Shown one piece after another: positions 2,958 to 60,834 of a DNA stretch of 64,000 nt (position 1 is the stretch's first letter; every line of letters starts with the position of its first letter). The DNA is from Cloeon dipterum (lineage: Eukaryota; Arthropoda; Insecta; Ephemeroptera; Baetidae). Made by a program: the position numbers and the translations under genes. Location: positions 6,076,001 to 6,140,000 of the forward strand of contig NC_088786.1 of NCBI RefSeq assembly GCF_949628265.1, read 5' to 3'. The notes below the pieces were generated by a model. That model saw only the letters and a program-made list of their open reading frames with translations. It was not told the origin of the DNA and did not search any database.

Positions 2958-5900
2958 ATGAAAATGGAGGTATGTATTTATTCACATCGATTATGAATTT
3001 CAATTTGTTAGACAGTATCTACGTTTCAGTCATCCTTTAAACATTTTAAACTAATTTTATCATTCAGCCTAGTCGGCCTAATATGTATGTAAAGCTTCCA
3101 ATTTTATCCATGAAGGAATTTAGATTATTACCTGTTGAGATGTAAAATACATGATTATGTATAGTAGTAATAGCAATTATTACAAAAATCACAGTGTTTT
3201 GGTTCACCTTCATTTATAACTTTTTTGATCGCAAAGAATTCTCCTTTCATGACAAATGTTTATTTTTTAATATCTTCTAAGTTTTTATTTGTATTGAGAG
3301 AAAATCCCTGAAAAAAATGAAGTTAACTAGTTCAGGGGGTGCCCATGCCCTGTAATTGTTTAAGAGGCACAGGAAATGAAAATGCTGAAGCAGTTCCCCA
3401 AGTAGTGTTTTCCTCAATCCTGTCATACACAACAATGAAAAATTTATTGTGTTGCCACCATCATTTTTCGCTTCTTTGAACTCGTCGACCTATTATATTT
3501 TACCCCCGCCAGCATTTTTACTGACCCTCTTCTGATTCTTTTGTATTGGCCACTTAAGAAGATCCCCTGTGGACCGCTGGTGCTTGAACAGCTCAACAAA
3601 TTTAAGGCGTCTTCGCCCAGTTCTCGCGCGGCGAAGCGGTTCTTTCGAGAGTTGTTCGGTGGGATTTGTTGGTTTCTATCGAATTCCAGTATTTGAATTT
3701 TGTTCAGTGCTTAAAGTAGTGACTGAAGGTAAAAGTTTTATATCTTTACGCCTCTTCTCTGGTCAGGTATAAAAGGAAATTTCCCTTCCAATATCTAAAA
3801 TTCCCTCGGCATTTTTACCATGCTTGTATTTGATTACTTAACACTACTTCTTCTAGCTGCATTTCAATCATATTTTCGCCAAAGCATCTCATTTGATCAG
3901 GCAAGGCAGGGTAAACGAAGTGGGCGAAAAAGGTTTCTGTTGAAAAATCATATTATCCCATTCATGCAGTAGGGAAAGGTTTGCCCGGATATAGGTATCA
4001 CCAGGGGGCGGGTTAACAGTCAGAAGTCAATATGGCGTCTAAGTGAAGGAGACCAATCAAAAGCGTTATAAAGAGGCGTGCAGACTTAATAATTTTATTC
4101 CCGCATAATTTTTTTACATCTTTGCTAGCCTGATTTGCCATTTAATGATTGATTTGTCAATTACCAGGGTAATCAGCTGGTACTAAAGAAATATCAACAA
4201 AAATATTAAAATATTCGATATGCTGAAGGTATTTTCATGAAAAATTGTCCAGAAGCACAACTTTCCCGCTGTACTAAACCATGCAGACAGGGTTCCGAAT
4301 TTTCCCCACCCGGATAAAACCCACCCGGGTTTTATTGGGTTTAACCAGGCTAAAAAACCCAATAAAACCCACTATTTTACCCAAGGCTCCAATATTTTTA
4401 GTATCAAAAATAAAAAAATGCTGGAAAATAAAAAAAAATTGTTTTTTGGCTGTTTTTTTAACGCTGAAAAGGTAGTGCTGCATTTTTGCACATTGGAAAA
4501 TTGGCGAGTCCCGGGCCATGAGGATTAAATTTCTTCGTCTCTTGAAAAAAAGCAGTGAATAGCATATTTTAAAAAACCCAGAAAAACCCAAAAAACCCCA
4601 AAAAAACCCATATTACCCCCCAATAAAACCCAGGTGGGTCGGGCAAAATGTAAAAAACCCGGGTTTTTCGGAACCCTGCATGCAGACACCATATCTGCGC
4701 GTCAAGTGAATCCTGCCCCCAATGATAGAAACATATCCTGCTTATATTTTGGAGTTTTCTACCAATTTATAAATAAAAACTAAAATTTAAAATTTTCAGG
4801 AGCAAGCTTTGGTTGACGCTGAAGTTTTCAAGTGTGATTTTTGTCACCTGCACTACAACCTCTATAAGCGTCGAGCAAAACTGTTAACCTGTAACCACAG
4901 TTTCTGCCTCAAATGTCTTCAAGGCCTGCAGACCTCCAGAGAAATCGTTTGTCCATCTTGTCAGTACATAACGAACGTCGGGCCTACAGGTACAGATATT
5001 ATTTTAAATTATAAAAACAAAAAATGCTCTGCCAGCCCAGAGAATTCCTTTGGTGTATTGGTTTAGCAATTATCTAGGGAATGATTGAAAAAACGGCCTT
5101 TTTAGGAACATGCCTTGGTGATGCCACAAAATATCTGGTTTTAAATTTTAGTTTCAGTGCAATCCTGTCGAAATAACCGCAAATTTGCTGGATAAATTTT
5201 ATGCCATTTATCTGGAAACGGAAAATAGGGCTGAAATCTGGAGAAACGGGTAATTTAGTCGTTCATAAAAATGAGAATAACTCAAGTTTTAATTTTTCTA
5301 TTATTATATATCATTTACTGAATACCATTATTTTAAATTTTTCATATTTAAGTAATTTGATTATATTTAAAATTACGAGCGAAAGTTTATTTATTTCAAT
5401 GATTTTAAACTCTTGATTTTTGTTACTTTACATGTGAACACGTTTAAACTTTTGTTATTGTAATTAAAAAATTTAATTCAACAATAGAACTTGTATCACA
5501 AATTTTCCCTGGTTAGATAAATCTCTTAACGGGACTGATGATCCATCTAAATCCAAAGCAGTGTCCCTTAATGATGGAATTAAAATCAACTCTTGTTTCC
5601 AAGCTGGCCTGTAGCATGTGCCATACAGAGTAACTTTTTAAAATAGGGACGCTACAAGTTGGTATCACTGAGGAGTGGTGCCGCGAGTCAATGTAAACAG
5701 TGGGAGAGCTATGGAGGGGAGGAAAATGCAGCTGGTTAGCTAGTGGTTTGCGATATCCCAGGAAATTCGCATTATTTTTTGATTACGTGTGACCGACACC
5801 GTCAACAAACTGTGATTTTCCTCTTCCCACCGCACTTAATTCATAAACAGAGGTACTAAAATAATTAAAATTCCAATAAAACGGGCCTGATTCAAGGGAT

Positions 5901-8900
5901 TAGAAAATAAAAATAAAATCAATCGTTATCTCAGCTTGGCCTGGAAGCGTGTTTTCAATCGTTTCTTCTAGATTGTTTGATAATTCGAGCAGCGCACAGA
6001 TTCAAATATAACTGCGGCCTTTTAGAATTGCTAATTGCGCCGTTCAAAGGTTGCGATTGCGCTGCTTGACGGAAATTTTTGGGTCATCGCGTGGTACTTT
6101 CACCTGTGGAGTTCCATTAGTAATATTTTAGTTAGGATTGAGAAATTGTCTTGTTTTGCAGGCGTTGTTTCACTAAGGGACAACGGCTTCATTCTTCCGA
6201 GATTAAAGGATGTACCAAAGGAAGAGATTTTAGCCAGCGACAAAGACCTAGATTCTTTTATAGACATGAGCGACTTCAACGTAACTCGTCTCTCCAATGG
6301 TTCCTCTTCTAATAATATGATCGTTCAAAGGTTTGCTTCACTAATTTATTTTTTTTAAATCTTACTCCGTTTAAAACAAATCAAAATATTTCATCGTTAT
6401 TTATACTTATTTATTCCTTTTTGTTATTTTAGAAGAATGTCTTAGACTCTGATTTTAAAACTATTTTCACCTTGCAGGCCAAACATGAAAAGGCCCATGT
6501 GGTTCTGTCGGTCGTGCAACAAACCTGCACACACAAATTGCATCGAGTCGCATGACCTGTGCCAGTATGAGGTCAGGGTGAGGGAGATGGAGGAAGAGCT
6601 GACCAAGATTCAGCGCTTGGTGTGCGGCCGCGCCTCTAAGGCAATGCACGTCTCGGACCAGCTACACATGCTCACCGTGGCCATGGAGGATGCTTGGGAG
6701 GCGCTAAAAATTAACCTAACTCAAATGCAGAAGGAGTACAAAGACCAATTAAAGTCTATTAGGTGGGTAGAAATTTTAAATCATATGGTTTTTAAATAGC
6801 TAGTGTTTGGTCTAATAGAAAGGATACAATAAATTAAAAACGTTTTTTCTCTTAACAGGTGAAAGAAAATGCACGACGTCAATTTATTAAAATATAACTC
6901 AATTTTTAGACCATTTTACCCTGATCTAAATTTTGAGATTGTAGCGGTTCCCGCTTATTTAGCGTTACTACAAGATCAAGTTAAAAATGCTGAAACCGAA
7001 GATATATCCCTCCAGTAAAAGTGAAGAACGCTTTGGGTTGTTTCAAACCCTAGAAATAGATACAAAAATGACAATAATTAAATTTTCCTACTTATTCAAA
7101 AATTTTAATATTCCATAAATTAAGTCTGAAATGATCTCAACAGCGAATCAAAAGCACATCTGGAAATGACAATTGGACAAAAGGACAAATGGGGCATCGA
7201 GGAGGCGCGTGCGGGCAACCCAGCCTTGCTGCAGGACAAGATAAACCGCTTGCAAGAGCACGGCGAGACCCTGGAGTACAAGTCTCGTATTTTCGAAGAC
7301 GCGAAAGCGCAGTGGACTGTATTCACTAACTGCACGGCGCAAATTAAGCTGAAGGAAATGAGTACAGCATTCCCACTGGGCAATTTTGACATCAATTTGG
7401 ACCTGCACGAGCAGAACGCCAGCCCCGAGTGCCTTTGCATGATGTACTCAATTTATAAATATGTGGAAAACCGACTGCAGACCAAGAGAATGGACAGCAT
7501 GCTCGGCGATGTTAATGCTTTTGGATCCAACACTGTTAAAGATATAGCGGTTAATCATCATAGTGCAGCTCCTGTAGTAAGAGTAAGATTCCTATCTTAT
7601 ATGAAAACTTATCATTTAGGTCCAGGGTTGCATTAGGTTACCACTTGGGTTTTCAAACCTATAATTTTTACCAATATCTTGCGCAAGAAAAGAATTTTAT
7701 GACTTTTTCCCCCGCGCAAATCTAAAATTTGTGGTAATTTCCTCCACTGTGCAGATAATTCCATTAAAATTGTTGTTTTCTGCCTCATTTTTTCCTAATA
7801 TTTGACAATTTTTCAAACCAAAGTCGTTAGCTAGTATTAGAAAATGATTGGTATCTAAGATGCAAACATTGCCTGCAAGAAACTGTTAAAAATTTAAACA
7901 AACTCACTGCATTTTAAACTCGTTTTGGAACTCTGATTTGGTCTAAGAATTTTAGACAGCTTTATCAATTAAGTTATGGAATTTAATATCAGCTAAATTT
8001 TTTTGGTTCTTAACTGTAAAATGGGATGAGCAGTTGAAGAATATTATTTCCGAGTAAAAGATTTAAAAAAATGTTTTCAATCAGACTCAAGAACTTCATA
8101 TTTGCTGGTTTGGCTTTTAAACAGTGAATTTATATTATTATAAATTTTTTGATTTATCTGAATTTTCTTCCAGGAACGTAACAACAACGAGAATGGTTAC
8201 CAACTTCAAGTAGTGGACAGCAAACCTAAAGCAACGATAGCTCAGATAGTGGCAACAACAGCAGCTGCGGCTCCAGCCCAGCCGCCACCGAAAGCAGTTG
8301 CCTCTATTCCCAAGCCTCTGGCCAAGACAAAGTATGCAGCAACTGTCTTCTGTTTTTTTGATCTATCGCACAATAATGAGGATATCGGAAGGGTTATCAT
8401 GGAGGTAAGTCAAATCAAATCCTAGTAGTAACATGTTTGTTTTATTTTACCTTAGTAATCTGGATGAAATCATAATTTGGACTGCATTCGCAATCTTTGA
8501 AGTAAGGGATTTTAAATTTTCTTCATTCATATCAACAAGTTAGTTGCAAATAACATTTTTTTACAGTTAGACTTATTTAGAGTTGTACTTATCAACGTCA
8601 TATTTATAAAATTTGCTGCACAATTTCACAACTGTTGGTTGATAAATTAGTCAAAGCTCTTATTGCTGCTTTTAAATTATTTTTTTCGTTTTGAATTTTT
8701 TACTTGATATATTATTTGTGTTATTTGAAACTTTTAAATATTAAATCCCTTCAATTTTTTATGATAATTGACTAGCAGGAATTTCAGTAATATGCATAGT
8801 TATGGATACTTATATAAATTAAAATGATCCAATTGAGCACTTAACTGGTTCAAAATCCAGGGTTCCTAATTTGTCCTCACAGTTTTGAAGTGATAGTCCA

Positions 8901-10198
8901 CTTCATAACTGGAACAAGTCCATTTTTAAATTTCGTTATTTTTTCAACTCCAAATCTCAGGTTCCAATTATCAGAATTGCAAGAACTTCCCATAGTTGGA
9001 CTCATCTTGACCTCTGACCAGATGAAGGGGAAGGGTTTAGGGTTGCTGACCCTCCACTCTAAATTGCTATACTTCACCCCCCTCTCCCCTAGTAAAATTA
9101 AAACATTAAATAACTCTGGAATTCTGTTTGATTTTGAATTTAATTAGGAAATATAATACATACTTGAATTTTGAAAAGAGGAATGGGAGTTTTAGATACT
9201 CTCCAAATATTTTTTAAGCCCAGAAGAAGCTTGCTAAAAAAATTAATCGGTAGCTATGAGGTTGAAACGGGACAGGGGGTAGTGGATTCTAACGTTTTTT
9301 TTTTTTGCAATTCTGATGGTTCTAACCTGGGGTTAAAGACTAGCAAAGAAACCAAAATATTTCAAAAATTTAACTATATATTTTATACTTCATTAATTAT
9401 TTTTAAACTGGAAACTTGTGATATAGCAAATAAACAAATCTTTTAAATAATAGTGTCCCAAAATTTGCATTTTTCCTTTTTTTTTCGCTAAAAAACCAAT
9501 ACTACATTTTACGCATTGCAAAATTGGCAACCCCAGGGGTATGAAGAGTGAGTTTTTTTTATAAATAATGCAGTGATTTAGCTATTCTGGAAAACCTTAT
9601 TAAATCCCAGGTAGGTCAGGAATGAAGTTAAAAAGTTTTTTTTTCGAAACTCTGCTGCGACAAAATTTTCTGCATTCACTGATCTTAAAATCCTGTCTAA
9701 AAATAGTTTTTCTTAATGATTTTTTGCCTTTGTCTGCAGGTGTATTTCAGCAAAGCACCGATAATGGCTCGCAATTTTATTGAGCTGTGCACAGGCGTCC
9801 ACGGTATTACTTACAAGTTCACGGACCTGTGGCAGGTGCCGGACAACGACCATGTGGTGGGCGGCAATTTGCGCGACGGCGACAAGATATCAATTTACGA
9901 CCGCAAGGTGTTCAACGGAGATGCATCGCCGCTGCACGACGGCGTTGGCATGCTGCGGATGCGCGGCCATGGCACCACGGCCAAAGGCGAGGCGGTCGTT
10001 GGCTCGCAGTTTATGATTTGGATGAAGCAAAAGATTTTCAAGAACTACGCGCGCACCCTGGTCTTTGGCAAGGTGATTAACGGCATGGAGGTGCTGCAGA
10101 AGGTGCCCACCATGGTGAACAAGAAGGAGGGCCAAATCACCAAACGCATCGTGCCGTGCCGCATCATGGACTGCGGCACCTGCGACGGCCCTCGATGA
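2958..10198 (+). CDS. RING - B-box-like - coiled coil - degenerate cyclophilin protein (TRIM-Cyp-like), 7 coding exons, 592 aa
   Basis: Coding exons about 2958-2969, 4800-4989, 6162-6330, 6478-6762, 7144-7576, 8174-8404 and 9740-10198 join in frame (1779 nt). Residues 16-58 form a C3HC4 RING (C16, C19, C35, H37, C40, C43, C55, C58). Residues 134-152 carry a C-x2-C-x4-H-x2-C-x3-H-x2-C cluster like the second half of a B-box. About 153-300 is charged and heptad-rich, likely coiled coil. An Ala/Pro-rich linker follows, then a cyclophilin fold at about 417-592 (NFIELCTG, GSQFMI and LVFGKV blocks). The cyclophilin catalytic Arg/Gln region is replaced (FTDLW... and HVVGGN where FHR... and QGGDF stand), and the ligand-pocket Trp is missing, so proline isomerase activity is doubtful. 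A RING with a coiled coil suggests an E3 ligase whose cyclophilin-like end binds a target. This role is inferred. An AATAAA at 10356-10361 follows the stop. Confidence 0.85.
4288..4678. mobile_element. Non-autonomous hAT-type MITE, 391 bp, with 8-bp target duplication
   Basis: The element starts CAGGGTTCCG and ends CGGAACCCTG, perfect 10-bp terminal inverted repeats with imperfect similarity further inward (an ACCCGGG/ATAAAACCCA-rich subterminal region on both sides). It is flanked by an exact 8-bp direct repeat CATGCAGA at 4280-4287 and 4679-4686. CAGGG ends and an 8-bp duplication are hallmarks of hAT transposition. There is no transposase ORF, so it needs a helper in trans. It lies in intron 2 of the RING-cyclophilin gene. 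Confidence 0.85.
8940..9150. repeat. Dispersed repeat with CCAAATCTCnnGTTC motif
   Basis: Intronic stretch beginning CTCCAAATCTCAGGTTC and continuing into a purine-rich then C-rich block. The same opening motif with related downstream text occurs near 56880, 62795 and 63818, and inverted near 63910. It is probably a fragment of one dispersed repeat family. No coding content is convincing. Confidence 0.45.
9440..9655. mobile_element. Decayed relative of the 4288-4678 hAT-type MITE
   Basis: This intronic segment aligns by eye with the right half of the element at 4288-4678. Shared features are a block with ...TACATTTT..GCA..TTGGCAA/TTGGAAAATTGGC, a later GCAGTGA..TAGC, a CCCAGGTRGGTC block, and a terminal ...TTTTTCGAAACTCTGC corresponding to TTTTTCGGAACCCTGC. 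Its left end is not recognisable, so it is a truncated, older copy. Confidence 0.5.
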
Positions 10199-10355: not shown

Positions 10356-10361
10356 AATAAA
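10356..10361 (+). promoter_or_regulatory. Polyadenylation signal of the RING-cyclophilin gene
   Basis: AATAAA lies about 155 bases after the stop codon at 10198, the first canonical signal downstream. Confidence 0.5.
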
Positions 10362-11364: not shown

Positions 11365-14300
11365 TTATCTGTAGCAGTAGGCTGAATCCTGCGTCGAAGC
11401 CGCGATCCAGCCGATGAATTTGGACACGGCTGTGTAAAGCCCTGGATAATTCGGCAGTCCACAGCCGATACCGTTCGACACAATACCTGTAATATATAAT
11501 GTTTATCTGTTAAAAAGATAATATTGTCAAATCTTTACCAACGAGAGTATATCTGCGAGATCTGGGATGCACCAGTTGTAATGGCCCACCGCTGTCGCCC
11601 TGAAAGTAAATTGAATTAATATGTATTTGCCAAACCGCATTACGAATTGTTGGCAATAGGCCAAGAATTTTTCAAGGCAACACGGTTAAGTTTTCAAGGA
11701 TAATATACGCTCAAAATATATTGTATAATGCAGTATGTACATCTTACATCCCTGCTGTTGTGTCTTACAATTAACCAATCCACACAATTTCATCGAAGAG
11801 AATTCTATGAGAAACTTCAGAATCAAAACATGGCCGGTATGGAATGGAAGCGTTTTGTCTCTCAACAGACTAAAAAATTAGAAAGAAAATTTTTAATTGT
11901 AGATTGCCATTTTAAAAAATCGAGATCAAGCGAATCATTCAATTGATTCATTTTTAGAAATTTAGAAAAGTTTCTCAAACAGTCCTGATTTAATTTTATT
12001 CATTATTTCACATTGTTGAGAAGAATTGTTCCTAGATTCCACAGTAAATTAAAAGATTCAAATACATCCAGAATGTGCTTACACACGGCAACAATGCTCA
12101 AAGAAAACTTCAGGTTGATTCTTAAATTCTTTTGAATATTGGCGCCATTTTGTTTAAATGCTAAGATAAATTTCGTAATTTTCATTGAAAAGGGAAAGAA
12201 TCGGATAGTGAATATGAAAAACACTTTAATTTATTCTTGAGCGAGGGTATAATAGTGGAGGAAGGCAGAAGGCGGGGGTATAATATAAGGAGAGTAAAGG
12301 CTTTACTCTCCTTAGTATAATATGCATATTATATTATGTAATGGTCTTATATAAATGCTGGAAATAGTTGTGCGCCGTTGGCGTTTAATAAAATAAATAT
12401 TCTATTCTATTATGTGTATGGTCTTCACAGAAACTCGAACAGAATGCAATTAATGCAGGAGGTCAGAAACTCGAATTCCGACAACGAAAATGGAACACAC
12501 AAGAACGCAAGAGGAATCGTTTTCGCTTTTTCGGCTATTCATTAATTCCAGCGACTTGCACAGACCTGCATGGGATGTGTGTTTGGATATGACGTCAATG
12601 CAGAGCCCACACGCACGCACAAAAATGTTTATAGATATATTATGTACTTCAAATAAATAGATTCCGGTTTGCGTCTGATGTCTGTCTGGACTTGACTGAG
12701 TGGTCTTGGTTTGGGGAATAGCATGATCGTGCTTACATAAATACTTAAAAAATTCTTATCGCCATATTGCTACCATTATTGCTACATCCATTATGTTCGT
12801 TGTTCCTCAACATCAATCCAACCAACCTAATACTGGTACGTATGATATATCTACGTTACAAAGTTATAATTTAGATAATATATATTTAAGTTATTTAATG
12901 ATACATACACATATACACATTATATGTATATGTGTGTAATACATTTTTTTAATTCGATTTCATGTAATGTCTTAAAATCACTAATATATAATTTAATCCT
13001 AGTAGGACATTCGCATGACATGACGAGATTCGTCTATTATAGAATGATTTGAAATTTCTGAAGTCATTATCTTGGAAATATCAGATTTTCTTCGTTGTCA
13101 AAACAGCCGCGCGTAACTTTTGAATCGGCAGCTACACCGATTTGTACCGAATTTCATATTAAACCAATTAAATTCAGTGATAGTAGGTCGATCAATTTAT
13201 TAATCAAGTCTATATTTACATCAATCTCGCCATAAATATTTTATTACATTCCTGCATGCCCGTAAACTCTTGGAAAATATTCCGCATTCCATTCGCTCCT
13301 TTGACAGCTAAAAATTTTTAAAATTCGCTTTCTGTGGAAATTTCCAACCTTTTCAGCATTCTGCTCTAGTTAAATTATTCTATTTTTTGTTGTTAAAGCT
13401 TCAAAGACATGGGCAAAAAAGTAGAGCAGCCTGCGCAGCACTTAGTGCGCTTCAACTTAAACATTTTTGCGGACATCAGACTAATTTGCGAAACAACGAG
13501 GCCAAATGAGCGCAACTTGGTCGTTGTTTTCGATAAAGACGACAAGTTGCCGAAAAGTCCAGCCTCGAGGAGAGAAGCAAGTCAGAGAAGAGCCAGTCCT
13601 GATGAGTAAGATTTTGTCGACTATTTTTTTGGACCCAGGTTTATTTGCGCGTTATTTGAAAATTCACTGCATGAAAAGGCACAACAGAACTAATAAATTT
13701 ATTCATTTTCAAGGTTGAGATTAATTATTTTACGTAATTTCCACGAAGCGAGAATGACAAAAATATTGCAGGTCAATCGCCCTGATTTGCTTAAAAATAT
13801 TTCATTTTTTGTTCATGATCCAATCTTCTCAGAGCGGAAACGCAACCTGTGCATAGAAAACAAGGAGTTGTATGTTCTTCGCCAGCTGCAGTTTCGACGC
13901 AGCGAGAATCAGGAGATGGAAAGCGTAATGGCAAAAAATCAGCTAGGTAAATACAATTTTACGCAATTTAAAAGGACCTATAAATCAGATATTTCCTGGA
14001 AAATAGAGATAATAAAATCTTGTATTGTAATTTGCGATTCCATATTATATTTTCCAGCTCCCTAATGACTCCTTTAAAAAAGCTTTTCGCTTGAAATTTT
14101 GTTTCTAGATTCTTCAATGATTAAAAGATTCAAAATACACCAGAATGCGCTTTACACATTCCAACTTATGCTCAGAGATTCGCTTAACGAATTCTCTTGG
14201 ATTTTTGAAGAACTTCTTTTGGTTGTGTCATAAATTTGGTCGAATTTTGGTGCCGTTGTTTATATATATATTTACAATTATGATATTAAGTCGTACTCCT

Positions 14301-17300
14301 GTTTTAGGACTTCATCAAAGGGAAGAGGTGGGGTGTTGTGCGACATTACCAAAGAGTTTGAAATCGCTGATACAGATATTCCCTGTCAAGATCAGCCCAG
14401 CCCAACAAAGGCGCCACCTGCGAGGTATTGCCATGCTCATTTGTAAATAATTTTGCATTGTAATTTGTAATGGGAATAGAATCGGATCGTAATTCAAGTA
14501 TTATGTTATTGAAAACCTTAAATTTATTCATTAGCGAGGTTAGTGGAGGGGAAGGGGCAGGGGGTATAGAAACTGGATCAGAAAACAGAATGCAGGAGGT
14601 CTCGAATTCGAATTTAAATTATTTCATTTTTTGTTTATGATCCAATCATTCTCAGAGCGGAATCGCAACCTGTGCGTAGAAAACAAGGAGTTGGAAGTTC
14701 TTCAACAGCTGCAGTTTCGACGCAGCGAGACTCAGGAGATGGAAAGCGGAATGGCAAAAAACCAGCTAGGTAAATACAATTTTACGCAATATAAATCAGA
14801 TATTTACTGGAAAAAGATAAAAAAATCTTGTATTTTAATTTTCAATTCCATTTAATATTTTCCAGCTCCCTAAATTTGTTTGATTCCTTTAAAAAAGCTT
14901 TCGCTAGAAATTTTTACAACTATGATATATAAGTCGTACTCCTGTTTTAGGACTTCATCGGAGGGAAGAGGTGGGGTGTTGTGCGACATTACCAAAGAGT
15001 TTGAAATCACTGAAACAGATACTCCCTGTCAAGATCAGCCCAGCCCAACAAAGGCGTCACCTGCGAGGTATTGCCATTCTCATTTCTCTTGTACATTATT
15101 TTTAAAGCGTTTATGAATATAACTTATTGCATCCAAAATTTTTTGAGAATTGTGTCAAGGCTGTCGTAAAAATTTTTCAAGAGATATAATATATTCAAAT
15201 AAGTTTGTACGCCTTGAAATGCAGCTTTCTTATCTGGAAATATTTATTTTTCTAGTTGGTCAATTATTTTAATGCGAAATATTTTTGCACTCGATCTGTT
15301 TTTAGAGAGCCCTTGGCTGAGGTTCTACAATACAATGATGGCGAGGAAGAAAAAACTGAGACTCCCAGCCTGACTGAATCTAATGTCAATGATGATCAAA
15401 CTTTTCAAACCCAACCAGTTGCAGCTAAACGGACTCTTCTAGCTGACCAAAGCAGCAGCCAAAACGACCTTGGGTGTGTAAATTATTTTTCTCTACTTTA
15501 TTTTTAATATTTTGTATTGACATTGTATACAAATCCTTGAAGCTAATTCTCTCTACTCGTTTCTGCTTCATTCCAAAGCCCTAATTGATTAGCAAGCAAT
15601 TCTTTTTAATAAAATAATTAAATTGTTGCATCCAATTTTTTAAAGAAATAATGGTGTCAAGGCTATCGCGTAAATTTTCAGGAGTGATTTAAATTTAAAT
15701 AAGTTTGTATGCCCTGAAATGCAGCCTCCTGATCTGTAAATTTTTTTTTCTAGTTGGTCAATATTTGTAATACAAATATATTTTTGCACTCAAGTTTCTA
15801 TAGAGATCCCTTGGCTGAGCTACTGCGATGCATGGATGACATGGAAACTGAGACTCCCAGCCTGACAGAATCTAATGTCAACGACGATACAACTTTTCAA
15901 ACCCCACAAGTTGTGTCTAAACAGACTCGACTAGCTGGCCAAAGCAGCAGCCAAAACCACCTTGGGTGTGTAAATTATTTTTCTCTACTTTATTTTTAAT
16001 TTTTTGTATCAAAAACTGTGTCAAGGCTGTCGCGTAAATTTTCCATGTGGTCTAAATTTAAATAAGTTTTAGTACTCCTTGAAATGCAGCCTCCTGATCT
16101 GTAAATTTTGTTTCTAGTTGGTAAATATTTGTAATACAAATATATTTTTGCACTCAAGTTTCTATAGAGATCCCTTGGCTGAGCTGCGATGCATGGATGA
16201 CATGGAAACTGAGACTCCCAGCCTGACTGAATCTAATGTCAACGACGATACAACTTTTCAAACCCCACAAGTTGTGTCTAAACAGACTCGACTAGCTGGC
16301 CAAAGCAGCAGCCAAAACCACCTTGGGTGAGAATAAATGATTTTTTATTCTTCTACTTTTTTAATTTTTTTTGTATTGAGATTCAATTCATATCCTCAAA
16401 GCTAATTCTCTCTACTCGTTTCTGCTTCATTCCGAAGCCCTATTTCATTATCAAGCTTTCCTTTTTAATATTTTCAATAAAATAATTAGCTTTGAGGAGG
16501 AGGAAAGGACCTCGTTGGGATTTTTCTTGACATATCTTGGCTGCCAGTCCTCGGACAGAGATAAAAAGTATTTTCTTTTTAAGAAATCATTCCTTGAATG
16601 AATGAATTTTCTGCTTTAATTGCATTTTCCTTCTGTTTAAATGATGGTTAAAATGTTAAAAGAAAATATTTTAACTCAATAAATAAAAATCAGGACATTA
16701 TTGATATTTATTTTTTAAATTGAATATTAATTACATTAATTATATATACCGTCAATATTCACTTTTTGTCAAACAAAGATTATTTTACCATGCAGCAGCA
16801 TTAACTTTGTGCATTGTTAATTGCAGACTGAAAAACCCAGGGCTGATGTGTTACATGAACGCGTCCCTGCAGGCTTTGGCGGCTGCTGAGCCTTTCCGCA
16901 GCTACCTGATTGAGGCTAATATTACCCGCGAGGAGAGCAAGGAGGTGTACAACATCGCATTAGTCATTGAGAATATTCCGGCTGCCAAGCCTGTTAAGGA
17001 GAAACGTGTCAAACCAGAGTATTTGTGGACCATGAATCGGACACAATTCAACCTGCATAATGACGTGCAGCAAGACGCGCATGAGTATATAACTCGATTG
17101 ATTACACTGCTAGATGATGAGCTGCAGAAATTCCGAGACAAAAACCTGAGTGAGGACCTGTTCTACTCAACCTGCCTCATGCTACCCTCTTTCTGCGAAG
17201 GGTAAAATGTTTCTTCTTTTAATAGCTGCAATATTAAGACCCACTAAAGCAAATTTTTTACATTCAAATCAATTTCTGAGGGGTAAATAATTTTGCGTTG

Positions 17301-20300
17301 CGCCAAAGCAACGTGTGTTTTACTTGCACGTCACCAATCATTTTGTGATCGTAAAAATTATGGTGAAATTAAATCAGCATTTTCACCCTAGATTAATACC
17401 TCACGTTTTTTCCAGTCCAACTTAGAATTTTTAAAGGAAGCTTATAACTGCTATACAAATTGGGGAAAATATTTTTTTCAGAAACCTTTGTGCAGTCCCG
17501 CAATTATGAAAAAGGAAATTATAATTTCAGCGCGTGCAAGAGAAACGTAACACCGATCGCCAGCAAAGTGAAGCAGGTGATTTTGATGCTGGATATCCCA
17601 GAAGCGCAGAACGATGAGAATGATCAATCTATAACAGTGCAGGACTTGATCGACGAAAGCCTAAAGACAAAAATTGAGAACCGTTGCTGCAGCTTGTCCG
17701 TCACTGTTTTCTCTATTTTCACCCAGCTACCTAAGTATTTACCATATAAATTATTTATAGAGATAAATAATAGATGTTCCTGTAGAGTGTTGATCGTCTG
17801 CCTGAAAAGATACACCACCGCAGAGAAGAAGATAGATCGCTACATCACGGCCTCGTCTGATTTGGTGCTCTCTGAGTTTCGCTGTGACGAAGGGTATTGT
17901 TTAAATCCTTAGTTGCCAGTGTTAAGCGGTTTAATATTTTTATATCTTGATTAGGAAGATCAAGGAGTTCACATCGAACAAACACAGCAGGGAGAAATCA
18001 ACCCGCTTGGTATGTCTGAAATTCAATTCTTTTTTTATTAAAGATCGTTTATTAAATCAGCACATTTTAAATTTGAGAGGAATTTTGAAAGCCCTCTTAA
18101 TGTTTAAAAATTTTATATCATAATTATGCGATAGCCACAAGTGGCTTTGGGCCTCCGGACAGGCGCTTTGCGCCAGCCCTTCAGGCTACTGTCCGTTGAG
18201 GCGACGAAACTTGCGTAAAGACTAAACATAAGTGACGGCGCCGGCGAAACCGTGAAAAACCCGCGGCCTTAAGCAGGTCAGTGACAGGCAAGGGTAAAAG
18301 ATCTTTGTCAAGTATCGCCAAATGTGCTCGAAAGTCATGTAAAATCATTAAAAACCGGCCTGGGAGCGAATCTCAGGTCGGGTTACCCTGGAAAAGGTCG
18401 TCCTCTCAAGTAAAATTCCGATAAAAAACCTGTCCGATTAGGGGTCGTGATCGTCGATCCATCGAGTGGCCGAATTTTAATAAAAACAGTTTGAATTTAT
18501 GCCCTGGACCAGAGATATGGCCGCCGGAAGTTGGGAGATGTCGAAAAAACGCTAACTTTATAACTGCTGTGTAAAATCAATGGCTTGATCAAAGTTGAAA
18601 AAGTCTCACAAAGTGTTCTTTATTTTTTGATGCCTTAGCTGAGATGGCTAGACCCAGAAAAAATCCGTTTCACGATGAAAAATGTTTTAGAAAATTTTCG
18701 GCAAAAAAAAATTGGATAAATGGTCAAATTTTGAAAAACCGCAAAATTTTTGCCTTTTCAAGAGATCTAAATTGATAATTTCAAAATTTTTCGTATCTAA
18801 ATTTCATGGTCGGGAGGTTCGAATTTTAAAAACTTATTGATTCCTCTCGTCAAATCCAATCAATTTGTACCAAATTAATGGAAAATTTCTGATGGTTCTG
18901 GCAGCTTTTCATTACTTTAAATAACTAAAAAAACCTCTTCGAAATAATATTCTCAAAGGGATGAGATGATGAAAACAATCGCTGTTCCAGGGCCACCTCA
19001 AAAAAAAGTACAAGCTGGTGGGGATTGTGAACCACATTGGGACCTCAGTGAAAAGTGGTAAGGTTAATATCAGACCCATATTCACCATCAATAATAATTG
19101 TTTTAAACCTCTTAGGTCACTACAAAGCTGGAGTTTTCAACGCGGGTGAAGGAGCTTGGTATGAGGTTAATGACGAGAAAGTAACTTTGACCGACATGTC
19201 CTCAATGATTTGTAATTCGGCCAAATCGTGCTATCTACTGGTCTACGTGGTTGTGGAAGGCGTTGGAGAGCGCGTCAGGTCCCTCACTATCAACTCAGGT
19301 GGATCGTCGGAGGAGAAATCAAGTGTCTGATATTTGTTTCAATTCCAGTTACCACCCAGAATATGACTATAGCAATTGCAATTGCATTACAATATATATA
19401 ATTTCAAATTGATTTTTGTTGTTTCCATAATTAATCTTTTCTCACCTGTTACACTTCTACTCACGATTTTAGTTATTTCAAAACACAAACGTTAGTTTTA
19501 AAAATAGATCTTATAATATTTTCATAATTTTGTAAGTAAAAAAACCTATATCCAAAAATTTGTAATTATAGTAAAAACTAGAGGTCTCAGCCAGCCGCGC
19601 GGTGCCGCACCAGCCAGCACATTTTGGTCACAAGTGCAGCCGCTAGCCATCGTGAATCTGGCTAAGCTGCACCAGCCATGCTAAAGGGTCATAAATTTTT
19701 AAGTGCAGGGAAAAATGTCTTCCATACCTTCGGGCCGTTAAGCATTATCAAACTTCACGTTTGAAATATTGTCGCGAGTGTTAATAGCTAGACACCGTGT
19801 CAAAAATTTGGTTAAGCCAGCCGTCGCCTTAATTCTCGAGGCTGATTGTGAGACCTCCAGTAAAAAACGCAATAAATTTCCGTCATCTGCAACCCCTGAA
19901 ACGAGACTAACCTGGCATGAGTCCCTGCCGCCCTGGACCAAGAGCCCTGCGCAGAAGAGTGTGGCGTGCATGGCGCTGGGTGGGTATTTGGACTTGAGTG
20001 CGCACTCCTGCTGAGACAGAATTGGAATCGTCGTCTGCTTCAGTGAGCACTGCAGCGGGCCGCTCGAGTTTTGCGTGCCCCAGCCGGACACCACGGCCCA
20101 GTTGTTTTCGTAAGATGAGCCTTTTTCATTTCAATAATTCAATTAATTCAATATTCTGAATTTGAACAGCCGGTTTAAACCAGGCAATTTTTGTTTTTAT
20201 CAGTAGTTCATTGGAATTTATAGCTATTATTAGGTTATGTATTTACTGCAGAAGCGCTGTTAAGATTTTATCTATATTTTTAAATTGTAAAATGCAAGGT

Positions 20301-22443
20301 GGAAATGTTTTTTATGCTTGAAATTATTTTATTTTGGCTAAAATCCAGTTAGAACCAGCTTGGTTGAAATTACTTTTGTTAAAAATCCGGCATCTTAATT
20401 AGGAAAACTGCTTGAAATATAAATTTTCACCTGGTGGTGGAAGGCAAATGGGTCGGATGACGCGGTTGAACGAGATTCTCATGCTCAGCCGCAGCAGCAT
20501 GATGTCGGCGAAAAAGTCGGTGTGGCGGAACGACGGGTGTTTCAGCACTTTGTCCACGGAGAAGATGCCTGTCACTTTGTCCTGCAGGCAACGGTCGTGC
20601 TCGCCCAAGATTACTTTCAAGTCTTCAACTGTCATGCTGAAACAGTTTGAAATTATTTTGCCCAAATTAAAAGAAAAAATTCTACATGGTCTGCAATTTA
20701 ATTGTTGGTATGTTCTCATGATGGTATAACTAAGTTTGTTAAATTAAACTAAAGCTATTTTTTCCAAAAAATTATCAGATAGAAATCTTTCATCGTTCAA
20801 AACAATGAGAATTACTCGAGCTCTAATCACGCTAGAACGTTGAACGTTATGCCAAAAAGGATGACAAATTAGACAGCTTACAACTTTTTAATTAAACCAA
20901 AAATTTTGGAATGTAATGTTGCGCCAAAAGTGTGTGTAACATGGCTAAAAATCTTCTAGATCTCGTTCTATTTTTGTGAGTTACAGAGGGTCAAAGACTG
21001 CAAAATGGGATTTTAAATTCAGGTGAATAGCGAAAAAGATCAAAACTGCACGATGTGTTTATTTAGATCAGCGGAACAGGCTTCGTTTCCCTGCTTAGGT
21101 GAGACAAGACCATCAGATCATATAAGGGCGTCAGGGTAGCCCTCTCAGAGCGTTAGAAATTATTCCATTCTTATGTTTGGCTACTTAACGGACTTCTGTA
21201 TTGTTATGCTTATTGTTAGCAAGATTTGCTTGTTGTTGGAACATGCCAATTTGAGACTTCAAAATGTGACAAGTGCTAGTTTTTTACCCTTTGCAAGTCA
21301 TCAGGAACAATATCATGGGCACATCAAATTCAAAAAAGCAAAATTTCACTCGTTTTAAGAGCATGATTTTGTTTTAAAAATAAAGAAATGCGCCTTTCAT
21401 TAAAATCAATAAATCTCTAATAAAAATTCTACTGGAAATGCTGCTTACTAAATTTATTATCAAGGTAAATTTCTTGAGTGCAATTAAGAAATCGAATTTG
21501 AGGCCTACTTTTGGTCGTGGCAGTGGGCCGCGCTGAGGATGTACTTGTCGGAGATGATGGAGCCGCCGCAGAAGGGTGCGTAGTTGCGTTTCTGCGAAAC
21601 CAAAATCGCCATCCAGGGCAGCGAGTGCGGCACGGCCTCCACGCCGCCCACCACTCGCCCGTCGTCCAACCCGGTCGAAAAGCCCTGCAGCCGAGGCACC
21701 CTTTGCGTACCAGTTGCCACACTCGCCAATCCACACACTAAAATACATATCAAATACTATAATAAAATTAAATGGTTTTTATTTGAAATTAAAATTCGTC
21801 ATCGCTTTTAAAATGTATCGCACACTCGCAGATCCCCCTTAAGAGTTGAGAATAAATTAATTTTTAAACACTAAATATTCTGCCACTTAATTCAATTAAA
21901 ATTCTTCAGTGGTCACATGGGAATTCAATAAAAGCCAAATAAATTATTTTTTACCAAGACAGAAGGGCCTTACGAATCCAATGAGTTAAGACAATAAATT
22001 TAAATGGAAGCGTTTGCCAAAACAGTTAAAAAAAAATTAAAAAAAAATCAATTTTACGTTCTTTAATTTTTATAAAATTTGCCAAAATTTAATAAACAAA
22101 AAGAAAACTTACCACAATCAGGATCATTTTGAGAGATGGCTGGAGGGAAGAAGTTCTGGAAATTCTGGAAATTCTGCGGCTGCTGCTGCCCTTGAGGTGG
22201 AGCATTGAATCCATTTTGCAGGAAGGGCGGGAAAAATAGGTTTGCCTTCGGAAACGATTTTTCTGCAGGTGCAGGATTTGAGTCGAAGAAGTACTCGATT
22301 TGGTTCTTATTGTTAGAAATATCAACTTCGTCTTGCGGAATCTATCAATGCAAAATTTGTATATTTGTATTTTAAATGAAAATAAGTATTCTTACAAAAG
22401 CATTGGCTGCTCTGAGGAGAATCACGACGAGTAGGATTTCCAT
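11365..22443 (-). CDS. Secreted trypsin-like serine protease (S1A), 7 exons, 367 aa, with an 8.3-kb intron hosting another gene
   Basis: Exons in order on the minus strand are 22443-22396, 22341-22113, 21737-21509, 20636-20431, 20120-19912, 11599-11539 and 11486-11365. All phases match (1104 nt). Residues 1-15 are a signal peptide ([15 protein letters not shown]). About 17-92 is a Pro/Gln/Phe-rich pro-region with a repeated QNF triplet and no clip domain. A Cys-bearing link (DCVCG) leads to the activation site DGR-VVGG (cleavage after R120). The triad is H164 (SAAHC), D213 (ADIMLL) and S310 (GDSGGP). D304, six residues before the Ser, predicts trypsin-type cleavage after Arg/Lys. The usual SWG before the pocket is SNG here. 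The DSCQ exon and GDSGGP exon are separated by 19911-11600, which contains the whole USP gene. An antisense AATAAA (11282-11287) lies downstream. The family includes digestive and immune-cascade enzymes; the substrate is unknown. Confidence 0.88.
12000..12280 (+). repeat. Relic of the USP intron cassette upstream of the gene
   Basis: This stretch resembles USP intron text at about 14100-14230 and 14460-14570. Shared pieces include TTAAAAGATTCAAA, CAGAATGYGCTT, AATCGGAT and the ending GCGAGG...AGTGGAGG. No exon is preserved. It looks like an extra, decayed unit of the same tandem duplication that enlarged the USP gene. Confidence 0.45.
12287..12333. repeat. Two adjoining near-perfect palindromes
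   Basis: AAGGAGAGTAAAG (12287-12299) and CTTTACTCTCCTT (12301-12313) are perfect complements around a single G. They are followed at once by the perfect palindrome TATAATATGCATATTATA (12316-12333). A TAATAAAATAAATATTCTATTC tail lies near 12388-12410 and resembles the 3' tail of a non-LTR retroelement. Between there and 13408 no gene is seen. Confidence 0.6.
13409..19330 (+). CDS. Ubiquitin-specific protease (peptidase C19), possibly USP37/26-like, nested in the serine-protease intron
   Basis: Exons: 13409-13605, 13833-13946, 14308-14424, 14656-14769, 14951-15067, 15306-15473, 15804-15965, 16168-16326, (16490-16567, optional), 16827-17201, 17531-17734, 17786-17893, 17955-18009, 18991-19057, 19116-19330. 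Without the optional exon they give 723 aa in frame. The start is the ATG in AAAGACATGG. The N-terminal 65 residues could be part of a PH-like domain. A disordered linker (about 66-382) is built of repeated exons. The catalytic domain follows: Cys box [12 protein letters not shown] (C391), QQDAHEY box, [12 protein letters not shown], and His box KSGHYKAG (H654) with WYEVND (D672). The enzyme should cleave ubiquitin from substrates. The zinc-ribbon CxxC pairs usual in the fingers are largely lost. The USP37/26 link is a guess from the DAHEY and His-box style. One intron is only 51 nt (17735-17785). Confidence 0.85.
13833..15067 (+). repeat. Tandem duplication of a two-exon cassette inside the USP gene
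   Basis: Exons 13833-13946 and 14308-14424 (114 and 117 nt) are repeated as 14656-14769 and 14951-15067 with identical lengths and similar introns. All are phase 2-2, so each pair adds 77 residues without a frameshift. The peptides are polar ([23 protein letters not shown]). The intron copies also share CAGAATG and TTTAGGACTTCATC boundaries. Confidence 0.85.
15306..16326 (+). repeat. Triplicated exon (168, 162, 159 nt) inside the USP gene
   Basis: Exons 15306-15473, 15804-15965 and 16168-16326 share the core [14 protein letters not shown] followed by a TFQT segment and an end in SSSQN-x-LG. All start and end in phase 2. Copies two and three are almost identical, differing mainly by one 3-base deletion near the start, so that duplication is recent. 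The flanking introns are duplicated too. Two more copies lie outside the gene at 31921-32339. Confidence 0.88.
16490..16567 (+). CDS. Optional 78-nt USP exon, possibly alternatively spliced
   Basis: The acceptor TAATTAG before 16490 and donor GTATTT at 16568 enclose 78 nt, open in the required phase 2-2 and encoding [12 protein letters not shown] then [13 protein letters not shown]. Including it changes the residue before LKNPG from Gly to Lys. USPs usually have Gly there, which favours skipping, but the exon is GC-richer than the introns around it. Transcript data would decide. Confidence 0.45.
18110..18960. mobile_element. Unidentified insertion-like sequence in a USP intron
   Basis: This 981-nt intron (18010-18990) differs from its neighbours. 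From about 18120 to 18540 it is GC-rich with compact hairpins: GCCAC-AA-GTGGC, GGCGC-TTT-GCGCC nested inside CGGACAG...CTGTCCG. It then grades into AT-rich text containing GATTCCTCTCGTC, a motif shared with repeats near 55260, 60855 and 61460. No ORF spans it. It is probably a degenerate or SINE-like element, but I cannot name it. Confidence 0.4.
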
Positions 22444-23166: not shown

Positions 23167-26100
23167 TTAAGATAGTCCAAATGAATGTTCTGGATAAAAA
23201 TCGATAGTTTGTGAAATACGCAGATTAGGAGAATATTTGCAAGAATTTTTGGTAAACGTGAAAGATATTTTGTCCGCATCGTACTTCACAATGACGCATT
23301 CCTTAGACGGGTCCATGCTCGGTTCTCCTTTTGCCCAAGGAATGTAGGAGTTGTTCAAAAAGGGATCTTCAGGAATCTGGCACCATCTGTTCGATTTTGG
23401 GCAGCCGAAGGACACAGCATTGACATGAAAAGTTCCGTTCATAATGTTGTTTGCTGTATTGGACGCAGTTTTAATTGAAAATAAGAATAGTTAAAGCAAA
23501 TGTGCAAAACCTTTCATGAGTTTTAGAAAGCATTCCATTTTTTCTTGAGTCTCCAGTGTAAGCATTACCGTGCGATACTCTACAGAGGATGCTTGAGTCC
23601 ATTTAGCGGCCGCATAGTAGGGGTACTAGAAGCTACATTTCGGATCAATTGTCCAAGCATCCATAGGGGAAATACATACTGCCACGATACACACGTCAAA
23701 TATTTTATTGCAGCCATAAATAAATTTGCAACTTGCCCTATAAAAAGCTGGAAATTTTTGGAAAAATCAAAATGGCATTGGCAGACATTCAGAGATTAAA
23801 TATATGATTACTATGATGGGACAAGACAGTTTAATTTAAACAATGGTTATGATTTTTATGCTTAGGAGAGAAACGCATGGGACTAAAAAAACGTATAGCA
23901 GGGAGGTTGAAGCTTCTTATTATACATGTTTATGAATAATTCAAACGTAAAAAATACTACACCAGTTTTCTTTGCTTTTCTATTCTGCTCTATCTGTAAA
24001 CATGGAAATGTTGTATAAAATACTTTTAGCACAAAGTTTTAAATAAAAGTAATTGCTATTTTTCACACGTCCACATCAGATTCAATGCTGCTACTTTGTG
24101 TTTTAGCATAAACTTATTGGTGGTTTAAAACATAATTTAATTTCCCCATGCTGTGTCGGACAGGGGCGGTTTTATGGAGGTTTGAAGGTCACCTTTTGCA
24201 CCCCCGAAAATCGATGGAACCGAATATTTAAAAAACCACGCAATCGATAGCTCGTCTCTTCGAGACAAATCGAAGCAGACCCAATACGCGGCCCATTTGA
24301 GACCCATAGTGGTCCCGCAATAAATTTTTTAAAAATTGCTGTTTACTAGAAAAAAGCGGTTTCCGAAAGGGATGAAAAACTATGGGTGTAATTTAAAAAA
24401 TTGACATAATGGGCCCTCTGTGCAGTTTAATTACGCGTCTTTTGACAATTATTATATTTTGTATAATTACATTGTTGAAATTTTTATTTAAAAATTTCAG
24501 TAAAAATATAGATTACTTTTAGAGTACAATATTCGATGCATCCATGTTTGCCTTTTGATCTAAGTAAAATTATACAAATTTAAAAAAATGCTTAAGTTTA
24601 ACGGGTTGCTACTAGCAAAATGGAGCAAATATTTCATGTTGACAATTAATTTACAAATAGATTAGATAGATTATGAAATGAACCAAAAAATCAAACCTGC
24701 TCAATAAATCCCATAGGAGAACACAGCGACTCTGTGCAACTCAGCGGGTTCATTCGCTTAAAACATCAGAACGAGATTATTAGAAATTAAATTTTAAGTT
24801 ACAATCTTTACTGAACACATAGCTCTGGCCATGACTGCAGGGTCTTCAAATTCAAAAGTCAGAGACTCTGTCTGCACATTTGCCTTCACTGTAACAAATT
24901 GCTTCTTAGGGTTGGTTCTTTTGTTGATAATCTGCAATGAGGTTTGATCAACGACTTCTCCCGACCCGTTCAGCGCACACCATGTGGAAAAATCAGTGCA
25001 GTTGCTCGGCCTCGCGCTTGTCCAGAAAGGCACGTCACCAATATTTCTTTCTGCTCATTTTCAGTAATATTATTTTTTTTAATGGTTAAGTTTACTGATC
25101 ATTTCGCGGGCCAAACACTTGGCCTCGTCCAAAGATGAAACACTTCCAGCGCTCATGTGTTTCGTGCAGCAAAATAATTGAGTCGTATTTTGGTTGAACT
25201 TTAAAAAATAAAAATAAGAAATATTTTTAAAATTCAGCTGTTTAGTTAATACTCTAGGAGCTCTTGAAAAAATGTACTGCTTTCCACACGCTTCTAAGAG
25301 TTCACCGTCATCTGGCTCTGCAAAAAATATTTAATAAATAGTAGAATAAATTTAAAACTCAAATACTGTATCCGAATTTATCAGCTTTCTAGAATTGAAT
25401 TGGTCATGCCATTATTAAGAACAAAATAATTTAACAATCCACACCTCATCTCCGCAAAAAGTGTTTGGGCAATTAGACTCGCAATAATTATCATTTTTCT
25501 AATTGTAATAACGAATTAAATTAATTCCTAACAACATAAATAGCAGACAGACCACATTATTGCATGATTGATTTTTAGAGCAATTTGTCCAGCATCTGTC
25601 CATATGGCAGTTTTTCGGTAGAACACATACAAAATTATTTCGATTTTGGCAGGTTTCCTGCGTTATCTGACTAGAACTGTTTTTTCTTTTAAAAAGATAA
25701 ATATTATTCTAAAAGTACAATAAATTTTACTTGTAAAAAACTAGGCAGGTAACTTGTTTGCTTGTGTTTTGTGTTTCAACATCAGCCATCCATATTTTCA
25801 CTTCCGGAAAATCTAAACAAGTGACGCTTGGGTTGTTCGTATGACTACAGAGTATCAGAATTGTTACCAACTGCGACGAATCCCATAAGCGATTCATCTA
25901 TTCCAAAATTTAAACCATGAAGGGCGCAAAACTTCTCAGCTTCGAACCTCCGCACCTTCACTCATTTTTACACATACTATTAAGATTATCTTAGAATTTA
26001 CCTGAACAAATGAAGGGAAATAAATCAAAGGCAAATTCGAGAGCTGGTCTAATTCTAGGGATTTAACTAAAACCAGTTTCATAATTATGTGATTTAAAGT

Positions 26101-27925: not shown

Positions 27926-31356
<3,431 letters not shown>

Positions 31357-32932: not shown

Positions 32933-35900
32933 TTAAGATAGTCCAAATGAATGTTCTGGATAAAAATCGATAGTTTGTGAAATACGCAGATTAGGAGCAT
33001 CTTTGCAAGAATTTTTGGTAAACGTGAAAGATATTTTGTCCGCATCGTACTTCACAATGACGCATTCCTTTGACGGGTCCATGCTCGGTTCGCCTTTTGC
33101 CCAAGGAATGTAGGAGTTGTTCAGAAAGGGATCTTCAGGAATCTGGCACCATCTGTTCGATTTTGGGCAGCCGAAGGACACAGCATTGACATTAAAAGTT
33201 CCGGTCATAATGTTGTTTGCTGTATTGGACGCACAGTTTTAATTGAAAATAAGAATAGTTAAAGCAAATTTGCAGAACCTTTCATAAGTTTTAGAAAGCA
33301 TTCCATTTTTTCTTGAGTCTCCAGTGTAAGCATTACCGTGCGATACTCTACAGAGGATGCTTGAGTCCATTTAGCGGCCGCATAGTAGGGGTACTAGAAG
33401 CTACATTTCGGATCAATTGTCCAAGCATCCATAGGGGAAATACATACTGCCACGATACACACGTCAAATATTTTATTGCAGCCATAAATAAATTTGCAAC
33501 TTGCCCTATAAAAAGCTGGAAATTTTTGGAAAAATCAAAATGGCGTTGGCAGACATTCAGAGATTAAATATATGATTACTATGATGGGACAAGCCAGTTT
33601 AATCTAAACAATGGGTGTGATTTGTATGCTTAGGTGAGAAACGCATGGGACTAAAAAAACTTATAGAAGGAGATTGAAGCTTCTTATTATACACGTTTAT
33701 GAATAATCAAACGTAAAAAATACTACACCAGTTTTCTTTGCTTTTCTATTCTGCTCAATCTGTAAACATGGAAATGTTGTAAAAAATACATTTAGCACAA
33801 AGTTTAAAATAAGTAATTGCTATTTTTCACTCTTCCACATCAGATTCAATGCTGCTACTTTGTGTTTTAGCCTAGACGTATTGGTGGTTTAAAACATAAT
33901 TTAATTCCCCCGTGCTGTGCCGATTTTTTTCGAGTTAACACAATCCGCAGGCAGCGTCAGCTGCCCACCCCAATGTAAGTCAAAGGCTATATATAACCCC
34001 TTTTTGCTGGCAATCGGATAGGGTGGTTTTTATGGAGGTTTGAAGGTCACCTTTTGCACCTCCGAAAATCGATGGAACCGAATATTTAAAAAACCACGCA
34101 ATCGATAGCTCGTCTCTTCAAGACAAATCGAAGCAGATCCAATACGCGGCCCATTTGAGCCCATAGGGATCCCGCTATAAATTTTTTAAAAATTGCTGTT
34201 TACTAAAAAAAACAGTTTCCGAAAGGGATGAAAAACTATGGGTATAATTTAAAAAATTGACATAATGGGCCCTCTGTGCAGTTTAATTTCGCGTCTTTTG
34301 ACAATTTTTCTATTTTGTATAATTTAACTGTTGAAAATTTTATTTAAAAATTTCAGTAAAAAATATCGATTACTTTTAGAGTAAAATATTCGATGCATCC
34401 ATGTTTACCTTTTGATCTAAGTAAAAATATACAAATTTTAAAAAAATGCTTAAGTTTAACGGGTTTTGTTACTAGCAAAATGGAGCAAATATTTCATGTT
34501 GACAATTAATTTACAAATAGATTAGATAGATTATGAAATGAACCAAAAAATCAAACCTGCTCATTAAATCCCATAGGAAAACACAGCGACTCGGTGCAAC
34601 TCAGCGGGTTCATTCGCTTAAAACATTAGAACGAGATGATTAGAAAATAAATTTTAAGTTACATTTACTGAAAACAGTGGCCAAGACTGCGGGGTCTTCG
34701 AATTCAAAAGTCAGAGACTCTGTCTGCACAATCGCCTTCACTGTAACAAATTGCTTCTTAGGGTTAGTTCTTTTGTTGATAATCTGCAATGAGGTTTGGT
34801 CAACGACTTCTCCCGACCCGTCCAGAGCACACCACGTGGAAAAATCAGAGCAGTTGCTCGGCCTCGCGCTTGTCCAGAAAGGCACGTCACCAATATTTCT
34901 TTCTGCTCATTGTCAGTAAATTTATGAAAACCAGATAATTTTTAAAGTGTAAAGTTTACTGATCATTTCGCGGGCCAAACACTTGGCCTCGTCCAAAGAA
35001 GAAACACTTCCAGCGCTCATGTATTTCGTGCAGCAAAATGAAACAGTTGAGTTTTGGTTGAACTATTTGTTCAAAATTGTAGTTATTTTTAAAATTCATT
35101 TGTTTTGTTTATACTCTAGGTGCTCTTGAAAAAATGTACTGCTTTCCACACGCTTCTATGAGTTCACCGTCATCTGGTTCTAAAAAATATATATTAATTG
35201 GTGGAATAAATTTGAAGCTCAAATATACTGTATCCAAATTTATCAGCTTTCTAGAATTAATTTAGGCATGTCATTTTAAGAACAAATAATTAACAAATTG
35301 CAATCCACACCTCTTCCCCGCAAAATGTGTTTGGGCAATTAGACTCGCAGCTATCAACTCGTTGCTAAATTAATCAAAAATAATAATAATTAATTTTAAA
35401 CAACTTAAATAACAAAGAGACCATTTATTTCATTGCATGCCTCCATAGAGCATTTTGTCGAGCACCTGTCCATATGACAGTTTTTCGGTAACACACACAC
35501 AAAATTATTGTTGTTTAGGCAGTTTTCCTGGGTCACTCCACTTGAACTCTTTTTCCTTTAAAAACCCCCGTTAAATTTGAAAAAAAAAAACATTAAATTT
35601 TACTTGTCAAAAACTTGGCAGGTAACTTGTTTGCTCGTGTTTTGTGTTTCAACATCAGCCATCCATATTTTCATTTCCGGAAAACCTACACAAGGGACGC
35701 TTGGGTTGCTCGTGTGGCCACAGAGTATCAGAATTGTTACCAACTGTGACGAATCCCATGAGCGACTCATCTATTCCAAAATTTAATCCATGACGGGAGC
35801 AAAATTTCTCAGCTTCGAACCTCCGCATCTTCGCTCGTTTTTAATCGTACTGTTAAAATTATCTTAGAATTTACCTGAGCAAATGAAGGGAAATAAATCA

Positions 35901-60570: not shown

Positions 60571-60834
60571 CTGGAAAATTCAATTCAAGGAAACTTGGAT
60601 CAAAATCGGAAAGGAGATGGGAAAAGAGTGGTTAAAACTTATATTATAATTTATTTGAAATTAGTTTGCGTATTAAAGTGGATAAGAACAGGGTGACAAT
60701 TGAAAGTTATTTAAATTATTGGATACATTAAGCAGCTTGGTCGATAAACAATTGTAAGTACAATTATTTGCAATAATAAAAAAGGGACATTGCCAAGTAA
60801 ATTTTTTTTTTTAAATTAACAGCGATTGACCAAT

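Follow-up and report, generated by a model that had tools for sequence, protein, structure and literature searches.

The window analysed here is a 64,000-nucleotide stretch of the Cloeon dipterum genome (NCBI RefSeq contig NC_088786.1, positions 6,076,001 to 6,140,000; C1:6076001-6140000 in a genome of 190 Mb and 10 contigs). It contains, at positions 2958-10198 of the forward strand, a putative gene for a TRIM-like protein in which a RING domain, a degenerate B-box-like cluster and a long predicted helix precede a diverged cyclophilin domain that is probably catalytically dead. Seven exons form one frame of 594 codons plus a stop codon and all introns have GT-AG borders, with splicing inferred from the sequence on the basis of frame and these borders; the in-frame joining of seven exons described in a first-pass annotation of this DNA is borne out. 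Loci elsewhere in the genome carry L numbers, and three of them are taken, from their sequences, to be cyclophilin A (CypA, L040), cyclophilin B (CypB, L035) and PPIL2 (L043). The gene comprises the following features, in which pLDDT denotes the predicted local distance difference test score:

2958-2969 (+): coding part of exon 1 (MKME); start codon inferred, GT donor, frame fits exon 2
4800-4989 (+): exon 2, RING; Pfam RING models, TRIM RINGs as top PDB matches
6162-6330 (+): exon 3, post-RING stretch and a linker without Cys or His; frame and splice sites, PDB alignments of TRIM RINGs extending to residues 79-85
6478-6762 (+): exon 4, degenerate B-box-like cluster followed by a helix; ligand spacing, AlphaFold2 helix
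7144-7582 (+): exon 5; frame and splice sites, AlphaFold2 mean pLDDT 36.8
8174-8404 (+): exon 6, Ala/Pro-rich linker and first cyclophilin strands (to GRVIME); frame and splice sites, Pfam Pro_isomerase
8405-9739 (+): intron 6, phase 0, positioned as in CypA; an intron of identical site and phase interrupts L040
9740-10198 (+): exon 7, remainder of the pseudo-cyclophilin and stop codon; Pfam Pro_isomerase over exons 6-7, active-site comparison
10356-10361 (+): AATAAA, candidate poly-A signal; hexamer also in introns 1, 2, 4 and 6

Exon 1, with 12 coding bases for four residues, appears to be the weakest part of the gene model and is the one of which we are least sure; the open frame of exon 2 contains no Met ahead of the RING. 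The AATAAA at 10356 behind the stop codon proves little, since the same hexamer recurs in the four introns named above. The G+C content of exons 2-7 is 41-56%, compared with 35% for the window.

Exon 2 encodes a RING domain with the ligands C16, C19, C35, H37, C40, C43, C55 and C58. In a Pfam scan of this exon alone, which included three residues translated from the intron edge, zf-RING_5 (E = 2.7e-7) and zf-C3HC4 (E = 5.1e-6) both scored above their cut-offs; when the whole protein was scanned, both were slightly below. The ligand pattern matches once in the protein (at C16) and in none of 5000 shuffles. A search of PDB sequences with residues 1-95 returned eight distinct sequences at E <= 0.001, all of which belong to TRIM56, TRIM32, TRIM2, TRIM23 or TRIM3, and these alignments continue beyond the RING to residues 79-85. 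A search with the shorter query 1-68, at a limit of 1, gave 71 matches, of which the top six are TRIMs; below these, other RING ligases are intermixed among the 60 of 71 matches listed. The C3HC4 RING annotated at first pass is confirmed by both the Pfam and the PDB matches. The window protein shares RING and post-RING stretch with the five named TRIM proteins, which contain full B-boxes and other C-terminal domains.

Exon 4 contains a Cys/His cluster, C134-X2-C137-X4-H142-X2-C145-X3-H149-X2-C152, which lines up with the final six of the eight ligands of a type-2 B-box, as defined in the accessible text of PMC5533445 (C-X2-H-X7-9-C-X2-[CDHE]-X4-C-X2-C-X3-6-H-X2-4-[CH]), with His replacing one Cys. 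The first ligand pair is missing, as there are zero Cys or His residues between C58 and C134. A six-ligand half pattern, somewhat looser than the published definition, matches the protein once (at C134) and 2 of 5000 shuffles. The cluster could represent half a B-box able to hold one zinc. Because the strict definition of the TRIM (RING, B-box and coiled coil; RBCC) family requires eight B-box ligands, of which six positions are kept here, the protein is named TRIM-like rather than TRIM. The present locus was not among the 11 matches listed in a genome search with the Pfam B-box model PF00643.

Behind the cluster, AlphaFold2 modelled a single 72-residue helix (residues 22-93 of the piece) when given exon 4 alone, with mean pLDDT values of 89-97 in the last 33 residues and of 59-87 in the earlier part. 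This model supports a long helix, which would pair with another; Pfam coiled-coil matches were all sub-threshold. When the exon 4 model served as the query of a fold search, there were seven matches at E <= 10 and none at E <= 0.001, and a match to the B-box of TRIM28 (E 7.9) was discounted as evidence. Furthermore, a phmmer search of PDB with residues 124-346 yielded three matches at E <= 10 (best 0.73), none of them meaningful.

The C-terminal domain matches Pfam Pro_isomerase over residues 427-579 (E = 1.8e-16; 61.2 bits, cut-off 21.7), which supports its homology to cyclophilins at the level of sequence profiles, and is 33% identical to CypA of the same genome by BLAST. The best NCBIfam matches were bacterial peptidyl-prolyl isomerase models, far under cut-off. 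Davis et al. 2010 (accessible text of PMC2911226) list nine active-site residues, R55, F60, M61, Q63, A101, F113, W121, L122 and H126, and describe R55 as invariant and PPIL4 as lacking it. Aligned with ten other cyclophilin domains from this genome, the window domain keeps none of the nine and has, in that order, Q, D, H, V, R, M, F, K, T at these sites; most of the other domains were pieced together by eye from tblastn, so that single sites near joins are possibly off. All nine residues are kept in CypA, CypB, L037, L038 and L039, eight in L042 and seven in L034; at readable sites, L041 keeps five of seven, L043 seven of eight and L044 eight of eight. In addition, the window domain retains 14 of the 31 columns that are invariant among the ten other domains, five of the 14 being glycines. 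With the framework kept and the pocket changed, isomerase activity, cyclosporin binding and capsid-loop binding in the manner of CypA all appear unlikely, and the domain is probably a catalytically dead reader. The diverged, intron-split cyclophilin end of the earlier annotation is upheld; the analogy with capsid capture drawn there is weakened by the loss of all nine named groove residues.

Intron 6 splits this domain after GRVIME in phase 0, and CypA contains a phase 0 intron at the same place, after GRIIME. A genome search with Pro_isomerase gave at least 28 matches, which were grouped as the window gene and 14 other loci. The intron site is readable at 13 of these 14, where CypA has the intron and 12 loci run through (L001, L034-L039, L041-L044 and L046; L045 is unreadable there); L001, being a retrocopy of L035, does not count as independent among the 12. 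A further CypA intron, close to HTGPG/ILSMAN, is absent from the window gene. A uniform chance model, which ignores splice-site preferences, puts the probability of matching one of the two CypA introns at ~0.4%. CypA is also the best match to the window domain among the ten domains of the same genome, with 76.3 bits in BLAST (next 60.5) and 62.4 in phmmer (next 43.1). We hypothesize, with moderate confidence, that intron-bearing CypA DNA was captured, rather than a retrocopy, whose involvement is disfavoured because a CypA-type intron sits inside the cyclophilin. The same intron supports the earlier proposal of an origin separate from that of primate TRIMCyp.

Taken together, we propose, with a rough probability of 0.7, that the locus is one gene encoding a TRIM-like RING ubiquitin ligase that is dimerised by its helix, has a degenerate B-box for one zinc and uses a pseudo-cyclophilin of CypA-DNA origin at its C terminus as target reader. 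The protein would act as a RING ubiquitin ligase, with the half B-box binding one zinc and dimerisation occurring through the helix behind it, and the pseudo-cyclophilin might read its target by binding a folded partner, not through the usual proline groove but through another surface. Most likely, intron-bearing CypA genomic DNA was joined to a TRIM-type gene, and isomerase activity would have been lost after this joining. The complete evolutionary course, in which intron-bearing CypA DNA was taken up by a TRIM-type gene and the cyclophilin lost catalysis to become the substrate reader of a ligase with a one-zinc B-box, is put forward tentatively, as a scenario with somewhat less than even odds.

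Several observations weigh against this proposal. The Pfam B-box model PF00643 has no match in the protein at E <= 1; the B-box-like cluster of the first-pass annotation is a degenerate half, with six of eight ligand positions in register. The coiled coil retains one modelled long helix as its support, and its heptad periodicity is not significant (shuffles reached the observed value in 94 of 2000 cases for residues 152-218, 1470 of 2000 for residues 219-290 and 280 of 2000 for residues 152-290); the AlphaFold2 model of exon 5, with its mean pLDDT of 36.8, is uninformative. A residual peptide-binding groove may persist, given a remark in the accessible text of Davis et al. (PMC2911226). In a PDB sequence search, CypB (60.6 bits) and PPIE (55.7 bits) rank above the chains named cyclophilin A (best 52.0 bits; human-type ~46 bits), and in a cyclophilin tree the window domain has too long a branch to be placed; the CypA origin therefore rests on the intron and the within-genome scores.

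If the proposal is correct, TRIM-cyclophilin proteins also arose by a route unlike the retroposition behind the primate restriction factors. Furthermore, the reader module would have retained the cyclophilin framework and dropped the isomerase pocket, which makes HIV-style capsid capture less likely and indicates another bound surface. Specialist attention is merited above all by the dead pocket and by the intron shared with CypA.

The same combination has been reported from fruit flies. The accessible text of Sardiello et al. 2008 (PMC2533329) describes CG5071 as a tripartite motif plus cyclophilin protein and terms it a convergence with owl-monkey TRIM5-CypA. With RING, B-box, coiled coil and cyclophilin reported in one protein, Drosophila CG5071 has the same overall layout as the window gene, in which RING and cyclophilin are present, the B-box is half kept and the coiled coil relies on one modelled helix. 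The claim of an undescribed module is not supported: the window gene is a diverged case of a known layout, whose earliest report in the literature found dates from 2008, and not a new invention. In the accessible part of PMC3166285, four fly TRIMs are counted with CG5071 excluded, and a figure legend places CG5071 among the fly RING proteins without human orthologues. The literature found on CG5071 consists of family surveys and an antennal gene list, the accessible parts of which contain nothing on its active site or introns, subscription papers mostly and supplements lying beyond reach. CG5071, if orthologous, would allow tests in a genetic model.

The window gene might instead be a true analogue of TRIMCyp and act as a restriction factor that uses its cyclophilin to catch the capsids of viruses or retroelements. 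Domain order, a TRIM-type RING and a C-terminal domain of the CypA class are indeed common to the window gene and primate TRIM5-CypA. Primate TRIMCyp, however, has an intact groove and a retroposed, intronless CypA, whereas the window cyclophilin is interrupted at the CypA intron site, is 33% identical to the CypA of the same genome by BLAST and has nine of nine groove residues changed. The primate fusion arose by CypA retrotransposition (PMC3137616, accessible text). TRIM-cyclophilin combinations have been described more than once, including in rodents (PMC6677749) and as zebrafish ftr52, which combines RanBD and CypA and was long taken for a pseudogene owing to a stop in the RING region (PMC3137616), each as given in the accessible parts of these papers. 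A whole-protein search of the 190-Mb genome, however, found all six large exons at the window locus only and no second full copy among the matches listed, and its three further matches, with E values from 3e-8 to 0.002, are confined to the cyclophilin. Given these differences, we consider a capsid-catching restriction factor unlikely.

Two adjacent genes could also be envisaged, in which case a RING/coiled-coil gene would end near 7636 and the cyclophilin would belong to a second gene with its start within 7637-8339. Exon 5 read unspliced does run to a stop at 7636, and intron 5, which lies between the coiled-coil and cyclophilin exons, could hide a small first exon. Yet in exon 6 the first cyclophilin strand is not preceded by a Met, and the cyclophilin half therefore needs an upstream exon; moreover, exon 5 is in phase with exon 6, AATAAA is absent from intron 5, which has one ATTAAA, and the combination is reported as a single gene in the case of CG5071 (PMC2533329, accessible text). 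A division into two genes appears quite improbable on these grounds.

Orthology to PPIL2, in which a RING-type fold is likewise joined to a cyclophilin, is rejected as extremely improbable because a separate PPIL2-like gene, which has an N-terminal region of its own, sits at C4:10.34 Mb (L043), its domain is among the lowest scorers against the window cyclophilin, and the window protein has no match to the U-box model PF04564 at E <= 1 (zf-RING_UBOX matches weakly, E 0.0033, below cut-off). PPIL2 contains a U-box in place of the RING and is not known to have a TRIM helix. As in the single-gene TRIM-like protein proposed here, an E3-type fold is joined to a cyclophilin in PPIL2/Cyp60, which showed neither isomerase activity nor cyclosporin binding in the assays given in the accessible text of PMC2911226.

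Further searches for relatives covered viral contigs, in which a scan with exon 7 gave 33 pattern matches and 0 confirmed, and bacterial and archaeal sequences, in which a scan with the whole protein gave 10 matches and 0 confirmed. A search for six tandem units of the telomere repeat TTAGG gave 0 exact matches, which is uninformative as to an insect origin. Elsewhere in the genome, L001 (C2:28332277-28332753) is an intronless copy of the intron-bearing CypB gene L035 (C5:2.75 Mb), to which it aligns in four pieces covering 705 bases of L001 with 2 mismatches in total. It ends in a poly-A run adjoining a frame that we take to be reverse-transcriptase-like from its YADD motif. L001 is a cyclophilin retrocopy of very recent date, and such copies are the raw material from which TRIMCyp-type fusions arise. 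The CypA gene L040 (C5:2.73 Mb) has an in-frame upstream ATG and a presequence-like N-terminal extension before MSGLPRVFFDI, a putative targeting sequence, and perhaps yields cytosolic and mitochondrial forms.

Intron 1 of the TRIM-like gene contains a 391-base miniature element (4288-4678), presumably hAT-like, whose inverted ends are CAGGGTTCCGAA and which is flanked by an exact duplication of 8 bases, CATGCAGA. It has at least 41 genome matches including itself, and since the best other copies are 99% identical, it has probably been mobile recently.

Downstream of the gene, the window encodes a ubiquitin-specific protease exon at 16705-17202 on the forward strand (Pfam UCH, E 7.6e-15). On the reverse strand, trypsin-like protease exons were identified by Pfam at 19741-20743, and a GDSGGP motif is found at 11510-11671, where Pfam gave no trypsin match. 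Three near-copies of one reverse-strand frame (NVNAVSFGCPKSNRWCQIPE...) are located at 23170-23490, 27929-28225 and 32936-33238 with a spacing of ~5 kb; the copy at 23170-23490, the one scanned, has no Pfam match at E <= 0.01. Furthermore, an ALG6/ALG8-type glycosyltransferase exon (Pfam, E 1.3e-9) is encoded at 60259-60579 on the reverse strand.

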